Shown: positions 62,235 to 64,000 of the stretch, in pieces
Layout: each line of letters opens with the position of its first letter
How positions within the stretch are numbered: position 1 is the first letter of the stretch
Source: an uncultured Carboxylicivirga sp.
Lineage (GTDB): Bacteria > Bacteroidota > Bacteroidia > Bacteroidales > Marinilabiliaceae
DNA: 64,000 nt
Direction of reading: 5' to 3'
Assembly: GCA_947491945.1 (NCBI GenBank)
Contig: CANLLN010000005.1
Location: 1-64,000, forward strand
The notes under the pieces: model-generated
What the model was told of the DNA's origin: nothing
Seen by the model: the letters and a program-made list of their open reading frames with translations, nothing else
The model's database searches: none
Program-made: the position numbers and the translations under genes

Positions 62235-63419
62235 ATGAAAGAAGTCTATATTATTGATGCAGCGCGAACAGCCATCGGAAACTTTGGTGGAACACTGGCC
62301 AGCATATCGCCGGCTCAAATGGGCGCCACGGTGGTAAAAACCCTTTTAGAGCGCAACAAGCTCGCAGGTAATGAAGTAGATGAAGTTCTTATGGGCAGCG
62401 TACTACAGGCAGGCCACGGCCAGAATGTAGCCCGGCAGATTGCGATGCAGGCAGGTATACCCAAGGAAAAAACCGCCATGACCATTAACATGGTGTGTGG
62501 CTCGGGTCTGCGCACTGTAGCCATGGCCGCTCAATCCATTAAATCCGGTGATGCTGACCTTGTAATTGCGGGAGGTGCCGAAAATATGTCGCAAGCGCCT
62601 TATCTGCTGCCTAAGGCACGCACGGGCTACCGCATGGGCGATGGCACATTAGTAGACTCCATGATTGCCGATGGCCTAAGTGATATTTTTAATAACTACC
62701 ACATGGGCACTACGGCTGAAAACCTGGCGCGTGAATACAAACTAACACGTGAGGAACAGGATGCCTTTGCAGCCACCTCACAAAACAAGGCAGAGAAAGC
62801 CATTAGGGAAGGCCGCTTTGAAACAGAAATTGTACCCCTTGAAATACCGCAGCGCAGGAAAGACCCCATCTGCTTTAAGCAGGATGAGTTTGTGCGCTTT
62901 GGCGTAAGCGCTGAAGCGCTCGCCAAGCTACGTCCGGCCTTTGCCAAAGAAGGCACCGTAACAGCCGCCAATGCTTCGGGCATAAACGATGGGGCTGCCG
63001 CCGTGCTGATAGCCAGTAAAGAAGCGGTTGAGAAATACGACTTAATACCCATGGCACGCATCGTATCCTATGCCTGGCATGGTACCGACCCGGCCGTAAT
63101 GGGAATTGGCCCGGTGGAAGCAGTGCGCAAGGCGCTGAACAAAGCCCACTGGAAAAAAGAAGAACTGGAGCTGATTGAGGCCAACGAAGCCTTTGCCGCC
63201 CAGAGCCTGGCTGTTATGAAAGAGCTTCAGCTCAACCCGGATATCACCAATGTAAACGGCGGTGCTATCGCCTTGGGTCATCCCATTGGTGCCAGTGGTG
63301 CCCGCGTGTTAACCACTTTGGTTCATGAAATGAAAAAGCGCAAAGTACAAAAAGGGCTGGCCACACTATGCATAGGCGGGGGCATGGGCATTGCCCTCTG
63401 TGTAGAAGGAATGCAGTAA
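62235..63419 (+). CDS. acetyl-CoA C-acetyltransferase (thiolase)
   Basis: A 394-residue biosynthetic-type thiolase. The nucleophile is C88 in NMVCGSGLRT; the other active-site residues are in NVNGGAIALGHPIGASGAR (His) and CIGGGMG (Cys), with NEAFAAQ in between. In this operon it should cleave acetoacetyl-CoA to two acetyl-CoA, completing conversion of lysine to acetyl units. It lies 66 bases after kamE; the gap contains only a small TCCG/CGGA inverted repeat. Last gene before the operon terminator. Confidence 0.95.
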   Translation: MKEVYIIDAARTAIGNFGGTLASISPAQMGATVVKTLLERNKLAGNEVDEVLMGSVLQAGHGQNVARQIAMQAGIPKEKTAMTINMVCGSGLRTVAMAAQSIKSGDADLVIAGGAENMSQAPYLLPKARTGYRMGDGTLVDSMIADGLSDIFNNYHMGTTAENLAREYKLTREEQDAFAATSQNKAEKAIREGRFETEIVPLEIPQRRKDPICFKQDEFVRFGVSAEALAKLRPAFAKEGTVTAANASGINDGAAAVLIASKEAVEKYDLIPMARIVSYAWHGTDPAVMGIGPVEAVRKALNKAHWKKEELELIEANEAFAAQSLAVMKELQLNPDITNVNGGAIALGHPIGASGARVLTTLVHEMKKRKVQKGLATLCIGGGMGIALCVEGMQ

Positions 63420-63462
63420 AAATACGTCCTATTTATTAATTGAAACCCTTAACATGATGAAG

Positions 63463-63496
63463 GAGCCGGCTTTATTCTTAAAGTTCGGCTCTTTTT
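63463..63496 (+). terminator. terminator of the lysine operon
   Basis: GAGCCG/CGGCTC arms extended inward by GCTTTA/TAAAGT with one bulge and one wobble pair, then a T5 run. It is 44 bases after the thiolase stop. Confidence 0.85.
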
Positions 63497-63517
63497 ATCT
63501 GAGAAAGTGCAGTACAT

Positions 63518-63590
63518 AAAAAAATGGGACTCAAACCGTTGCTTGAAATCCCATTTACTAACCTAACCCAAAATCTATGAAAAAAATCTA
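63518..63590 (-). ncRNA. candidate small RNA, about 73 bases
   Basis: Starting from the sigma-54 promoter at 63601-63616, transcription on the minus strand should begin near 63590. It would end at a strong intrinsic terminator: AAATGGGA (minus, 63549-63556) pairs with TCCCATTT (63522-63529), an inner 4-bp helix extends it, and seven T follow (63524-63518). No reading frame of useful length lies in this span. The 5' half is T/G-rich and looks unpaired. No match to a known RNA family was recognised. Confidence 0.5.
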
Positions 63591-63600
63591 CTAAGAACAT

Positions 63601-63616
63601 TGCAAGTGTCGTGCCA
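63601..63616 (-). promoter_or_regulatory. sigma-54 (RpoN) promoter
   Basis: On the minus strand TGGCACG-ACAC-TTGCA matches the full sigma-54 consensus TGGCACG-N4-TTGCW at every fixed position, with GG and GC exactly ten bases apart. A T-run precedes it, as is common. Predicted start near 63590. It points away from the purF-like gene and toward the 3' end of the lysine operon. Confidence 0.7.
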
Positions 63617-63698
63617 AAAACATCCACAATTTTGTTACTAAAAACTAATAATCGCAAACAGATGTAAATATCTAACTCTTTAGATGTTTCTTATAAGT

Positions 63699-63737
63699 AA
63701 AAACCCGCTAAGGTGTAATTTGTTCACCATAGCGGGT
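63699..63737 (-). terminator. intrinsic terminator of the amidophosphoribosyltransferase-like gene
   Basis: On the minus strand ACCCGCTATGGTG pairs with CACCTTAGCGGGT apart from one mismatch, with a nine-base loop, and runs into five T. It is 45 bases after the stop at 63782. Confidence 0.85.
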
Positions 63738-63781
63738 CTAAAAGTTATGCGCTAAACTTGCAAACTATACAAGTAGAATAT

Positions 63782-64000
63782 TTAATAAGCTCTGCCGGTA
63801 TTTCCCTCTACAAAATTGATAAAGGAAGTATTAACCACCTTGTTACCACCCGGTGTTGGATAATCGCCGGTAAAGTACCAGTCGCCATTATCATCGGGGC
63901 AGGCTACATGCAGGTTCTCCACCGATTGATATACAATCTCCACTTCGGCTTCGATATCCTCAGGACGCAGCATCTCTGCAATCTTTGCTGATATTTGCTC
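63782..64000 (-). CDS. amidophosphoribosyltransferase-like protein, C-terminal end (partial)
   Basis: The last 72 codons of a gene that continues beyond the right edge. The frame is open to 64000, reading EQISAKIAEMLRPEDIEAEV upstream of an internal Met. The end, with NLHVACPDDNGDWYFTGDY, PTPGGNKVVNTSFINF and a final GRAY, resembles the C-terminus of a Bacteroidota paralogue of PurF (about 620 residues). No catalytic part is in the window, so the identification rests only on this tail. It is closed by the terminator at 63699-63737. Confidence 0.6.
   Translation of the reverse strand, partial: EQISAKIAEMLRPEDIEAEVEIVYQSVENLHVACPDDNGDWYFTGDYPTPGGNKVVNTSFINFVEGNTGRAY

Follow-up and report, generated by a model that had tools for sequence, protein, structure and literature searches.

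The window analysed here, a stretch of 64,000 nucleotides from an uncultured Carboxylicivirga sp., contains an apparent sigma-54 promoter in the intergenic space between two convergent genes, followed by a short stretch that ends in a terminator. This raises the question of whether a small RNA is produced from this locus under sigma-54 control and, if so, what its function would be. Our preferred reading, to which we assign a probability of roughly 0.75, is that the locus encodes a trans-acting, FopS-type small RNA whose transcription depends on sigma-54 and which targets SusC mRNAs. According to this model, sigma-54 RNA polymerase would bind at 63601–63616 and, once fired by an AAA+ activator, would transcribe an RNA of approximately 72 nt that starts around 63589 and ends in the terminator at 63518. 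Its 5' arm, whose sequence is complementary to a typical start region of Bacteroidota genes, would then pair with the translation start of mRNAs encoding SusC-type outer-membrane importers and block their translation, while an RRM protein like RbpB would probably modulate this block.

A Predicted Sigma-54 Promoter and Small RNA between Convergent Genes

The sequence TGGCACGACACTTGCA, located on the minus strand at 63616–63601, matches exactly the full consensus of sigma-54-dependent promoters (TGGCACG-N4-TTGCA), including the invariant GG/GC spacing, as the original prediction had claimed. Further, TGGCACGNNNNTTGCW occurs only once in the genome of 4,897,006 bases, with no occurrence of the reversed control, and all the remaining sigma-54 motif matches within the window carry two mismatches each. 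By employing the usual geometry of these promoters (T of TGGC at −26), the transcription start was predicted at approximately 63588–63590. The spacing from the sigma-54 site places it where the FopS alignment described below predicts the 5' end. An rpoN gene, which a sigma-54 assignment presupposes, is encoded in the genome, together with eight activators containing a complete sigma-54 AAA+ domain.

The predicted RNA (AGAUUUUUUUCAUAGAUUUUGGGUUAGGUUAGUAAAUGGGAUUUCAAGCAACGGUUUGAGUCCCAUUUUUUU) is approximately 72 nt long and carries a 3' hairpin followed by U7; the region folds at −16.6 kcal/mol (z −2.6 to −2.7). A stretch of 73 bases from 63590 to the U7 tract had been proposed at this site. Its terminator was retained, while its start and length were revised, as R1, a covariance model built from the RNA alone without the promoter, aligns with 63589–63518 (about 72 nt). 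The sole reading frame over the RNA is a TTG frame of 59 aa, which also extends through the promoter. The flanking thiolase and purF genes converge on the locus, in line with the arrangement initially described, and by eye each of them has its own hairpin and U-tract (approximately 63459–63497 and 63705–63736, respectively). A consensus terminator scan of 63400–63800 reported none, but it also missed the hairpin of the RNA itself and was therefore uninformative. At the edge of the window, positions 1–999 of the minus strand correspond to a fragment of a 16S rRNA gene. The features of the locus are compiled in Table 1.

Table 1. Coordinates of the features at the small RNA locus and of its neighbours in the window.
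Feature	Position	Strand	Basis or remark
Predicted sigma-54 promoter, −24/−12 elements TGGCACG-ACAC-TTGCA	63601–63616	−	Exact consensus, unique in genome; recurs across family copies
FopS-like small RNA, ~72 nt	63518–63589	−	R1 match of 84.7 bits, full length; family alignment; Rfam FopS model matched end to end, below threshold
5' arm/seed UUUUUUUCAUAGAUUUUGGGUUAGGUUA, complement of start-codon region	63559–63586	−	Near-invariant over 36 copies
Terminator hairpin (stem-loop)	63522–63556	−	Fold; nine pairs with compensatory changes
U7 tract, intrinsic terminator	63518–63524	−	Sequence
Degenerate TTAAC-N5-nTAAC copy (TTAGTTTTTAGTAAC), possible activator site	63634–63648	−	Departs from family consensus
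Imperfect palindrome AGATATTTACATCT, which might bind an upstream activator in purF-linked copies	63660–63673	−	By eye; weakly enriched in counts
Thiolase gene, end of lysine operon, non-conserved neighbour	62235–63419	+	Pfam thiolase; adjacent in one relative among those examined
purF 3' end, conserved upstream neighbour	63782–64000	−	Complete gene in L033; purF-linked copies in nine genomes

The plus strand of the conserved stretch (ATGAAAAAAATC..) resembles exactly a gene start of Bacteroidota, and the stretch might consequently be read as a translation start or leader on that strand instead of an RNA on the minus strand. However, the frame encodes only five residues (MKKIY) and no gene follows it, a T-run adjoins the hairpin on the minus strand only, and the sigma-54 site is directed along the minus strand. 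Further, an antisense seed must resemble a start codon on the opposite strand. We consider the plus-strand reading to be very improbable indeed.

The RNA Belongs to a Multi-Copy Family

The minus-strand RNA had been described as an orphan, a view that was rejected because both BLAST and R1 matches are multiple across relatives; it belongs to a multi-copy, FopS-like family of marine Bacteroidota. BLAST of the region against 40 relatives gave matches in 38 at a loose threshold, and those within the genus were strong and multiple, tandem copies included; in C. mesophila and C. sediminis, three copies are arranged in tandem. R1 matched 56 of the 71 genomes of the family (Marinilabiliaceae), with 3–11 matches per Carboxylicivirga genome. 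In the genome that contains the window, a second sigma-54-driven copy (TGGCATGCATATTGTT) is located at C31:4883–4957, and paralogs without a sigma-54 site are also present, e.g., at C11:92031. Scanning the whole collection with a pattern that combined the sigma-54 site and the seed returned 44 stretches, which, apart from a few from MAGs labelled Bacteroidales or Chlorobiota, carried the labels Carboxylicivirga, Saccharicrinis or Marinilabiliaceae. A phylum-wide R1 search matched 6 of 395 genomes under strict filters and with few candidates scored per genome, so this figure does not settle the range beyond the family.

Over 36 aligned copies, the 5' arm is near-invariant, while the terminator hairpin varies in sequence and keeps its pairing. 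All nine consensus pairs (9/9) showed changes on both sides, 91.7% of the cells paired, and covariation reached 0.901 against 0.256 in shuffled alignments and 0.22–0.28 when the partner was slid by one column, the structure employed in this test being the consensus of the same alignment.

Relation to FopS and Other Small RNAs

The Rfam model of FopS (RF04319) covers the whole of the window RNA with a score of 24.2 bits, below the gathering cut-off of 56, which none of the relatives tested reached; paralogs with housekeeping promoters scored 38 (L019). On the other hand, R1 detected L209, which stems from another family of the order, with 37.6 bits, and L209 in turn scored 65.4 for FopS. Judging from this sequence bridge, the window RNA is probably homologous to FopS without being a member by the Rfam criterion, and the sub-cut-off score together with the bridge led us to the name FopS-like.

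In B. thetaiotaomicron, 14 FopS RNAs base-pair at the start codon of SusC importer mRNAs and thereby repress translation; RbpB, an RRM protein, binds these RNAs, their promoters are of the sigma-ABfr type, and FopS RNAs described in Bacteroidaceae have promoters of the housekeeping type (PMC11697453). The window RNA shares with them a length of 65–75 nt (72 nt), a single-stranded seed arm (predicted here to be weakly folded and not fully open), a 3' intrinsic terminator consisting of hairpin and U7, and the presence of many paralogs in one genome. Likewise, its 5' arm contains UUUUUCAU and is complementary to start regions, and an RRM protein is encoded in the genome. It differs in that the window copy carries a sigma-54 site in place of a sigma-ABfr promoter, with sigma-A-like boxes in some paralogs, and in that two-module versions are found in a sister genus.

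GibS of B. thetaiotaomicron (145 nt, with a second seed and the promoter motif PM2 at −10/−30) has the R1 type of seed in common with FopS and exerts its action at start codons (PMC7366714). The possibility that PM2 might be a disguised sigma-54 site was discarded, given its described position at −10/−30.

As the FopS promoters of B. thetaiotaomicron are of the sigma-A type, control by sigma-54 would be a new element. Neither a sigma-54-driven sRNA in Bacteroidota nor a report of a sigma-54 promoter for an RNA of the FopS type was found in the open literature searched. The Qrr RNAs of Vibrio are multi-copy, paralogous and Hfq-dependent sRNAs transcribed by sigma-54 together with an activator, and they take part in quorum-sensing control; they are like the window RNA in wiring alone, their sequences being unrelated.

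Promoter and RNA Are Conserved Together

In 62 copies bearing a sigma-54 site, TGG is located 32–37 nt before TTTCATAG, with a mode of 34. Since part of this set was gathered with patterns or queries that included the promoter, the unbiased figure was taken from the promoter-blind R1 set. Here, of 42 modules classed as single or first, at least 17 had a strict sigma-54 site (TGGYAYR-N4-TTG within 80 nt of CAT), compared to 0.16% expected by chance from dinucleotide shuffles. The count of 17 is a lower bound, since the 42 include second modules that had lost their first module to filtering. The search in relatives with which the original prediction was to be checked thus revealed that promoter, RNA and terminator are kept together in dozens of copies. 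With rpoN also present, sequence comparison lends good support to the central proposal of that prediction, namely a small RNA dedicated to this promoter and dependent on sigma-54. A chance sigma-54 match beside a chance hairpin, a reading with nothing in its favour beyond the short length of the motif, is refuted by conservation across a whole family of genomes, and we give it practically no weight.

In the other copies, either TAnnTTTG-like boxes, the housekeeping type of promoter element in Bacteroidota, are present or no promoter was recognised. The window RNA might therefore be a genuine FopS-like sRNA that is made in vivo mainly from a sigma-A-type promoter or by read-through from purF, as such boxes occur in paralogs of the same genomes and sigma-ABfr promoters drive FopS in B. 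thetaiotaomicron (PMC11697453). However, many copies whose flanks are unrelated have the sigma-54 motif at a constant distance, much more often than expected by chance, and no TAnnTTTG box was detected at the appropriate position of the window copy, which makes this reading improbable compared with transcription from the sigma-54 promoter.

Tandem arrays of FopS-like RNAs with a period of approximately 165 bp, sigma-A-like promoters and upstream TTAAC...TTCAC elements were observed in L052, L039 and L019, which belong to the same genus or family. In the sister genus g3 (e.g., G456 and G458), a sigma-54 site lies 45–49 nt before CAT and is followed by two arm-plus-hairpin modules, the second of which has no sigma-54 site of its own. 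The two modules were seen approximately 98 nt apart after the sigma-54 site in L245, L244, L235, L236 and L253. As the first hairpin is without a full U-tract, the whole looks like one small RNA, and the double arrangement is probably a two-module RNA.

Candidate Targets and an RRM Protein

The pairing capacity of the arm was determined at 41 SusC-type start regions in comparison with 401 other starts, taken from approximately 0.6 Mb of the genome, using the best-pairing ATG and ignoring accessibility. SusC starts paired better, with medians of −17.5 vs. −14.0 kcal/mol (p = 7e-8). Because every AUGAAAAAA can pair with UUUUUUUCAU, shuffling was confined to the remainder of the arm. Among 200 shuffled arms, 0 attained the SusC mean of the real arm (z = −3.6), and the difference between SusC and background was attained by 6. 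This enrichment of sequence complementarity is supportive of SusC targeting, to a moderate degree.

A sigma-54-driven sRNA might also act mainly on targets other than SusC, e.g., the starts of exported-protein or stress genes. The U-rich arm can pair with any AUGAAAAAA start, scores equal to those of SusC are reached by some other starts, and a pattern search of the own genome detected, besides the RNA loci, no near-perfect target and only a weak one at C33:5700 (3 mismatches). On the contrary, SusC starts as a class show enriched pairing, which holds in the comparison with shuffled arms too, and the related FopS targets SusC (PMC11697453); mainly non-SusC targets are thus unlikely, albeit a reading that carries some weight. 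Returning to SusC mRNAs as the preferred targets, by analogy with FopS and RbpB we infer that the RNA would repress importer translation and that the one RRM_1 protein of the genome (92 aa) may bind it and modulate this repression.

Signal, Activator and Genomic Neighbourhood

The location of the RNA next to a lysine operon had suggested a link with nitrogen metabolism, which did not hold. The purF-linked copy was found in 9 of the 14 genus genomes searched, own genome included, and in the stretches examined the lysine/thiolase operon adjoins it in two of these nine, i.e., the own genome and one other. The nitrogen/lysine link was rejected on this lack of conservation and because further sigma-54-like sites between genes are located ahead of chaperone and redox genes. 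In the own genome, these further sites lie before dnaK, htpG and a thioredoxin gene, the last observed near position 1500 of L285. Sigma-54-like sites before both dnaK and htpG were present in 14 of 14 genus genomes, and before dnaK in most other relatives examined. They likely represent a sigma-54 chaperone regulon, in agreement with the published enrichment of chaperone genes in the Bacteroidota sigma-54 regulon (PMC12316311). The dnaK and htpG upstream regions L311–L325 and L339–L353 display conserved sigma-54 sites, with repeated TGTCA elements at htpG.

Upstream of the RNA genes, a TTAAC-N5-nTAAC repeat was detected in 20 of 72 sigma-54 copies, mostly 31–32 nt before TGG, vs. 0.5 in shuffles. 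An activator site shared with the chaperone promoters was considered and dismissed, as TGTCA is not enriched upstream of the RNA genes; this result, together with the presence of the TTAAC-N5-nTAAC repeat instead, makes a different activator likely. A search for an activator gene beside the RNA genes found the signature in 2 of 44 flanks, so rarely that the idea of an adjacent activator gene was dropped. In L121, a sigma-54 activator without a receiver domain (284–2034) is located beside a gene for an LptE-like lipoprotein and might be an envelope-linked activator.

A Possible Stress Response Acting on Importers

A stress-induced halt of importer synthesis is attractive but unproven. MicA and RybB of E. 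coli are sRNAs under an alternative sigma factor (sigma-E) that, with Hfq, repress the synthesis of outer-membrane proteins. Their logic is like that proposed here, whereas the RNAs are unrelated, the sigma factor there is sigma-E, and a stress signal is only a proposal in the present case. Tentatively, and with more doubt than confidence, the Marinilabiliaceae may possess a multi-gene FopS-like family under sigma-54 and a dedicated activator. Jointly with the dnaK, htpG and thioredoxin sites, this family would constitute a stress response by which the abundant SusC importers are silenced. This would be the Bacteroidota counterpart of sigma-E with MicA and RybB, and the two-module RNAs would be an elaboration of it.

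If the sigma-54-dependent, FopS-type reading is true, importer repression would be tied to an on/off signal gated by an activator, and sigma-54 in Bacteroidota would gain a post-transcriptional arm. Further, a single genome in which two sigma factors drive RNAs of one kind would constitute a natural comparison.
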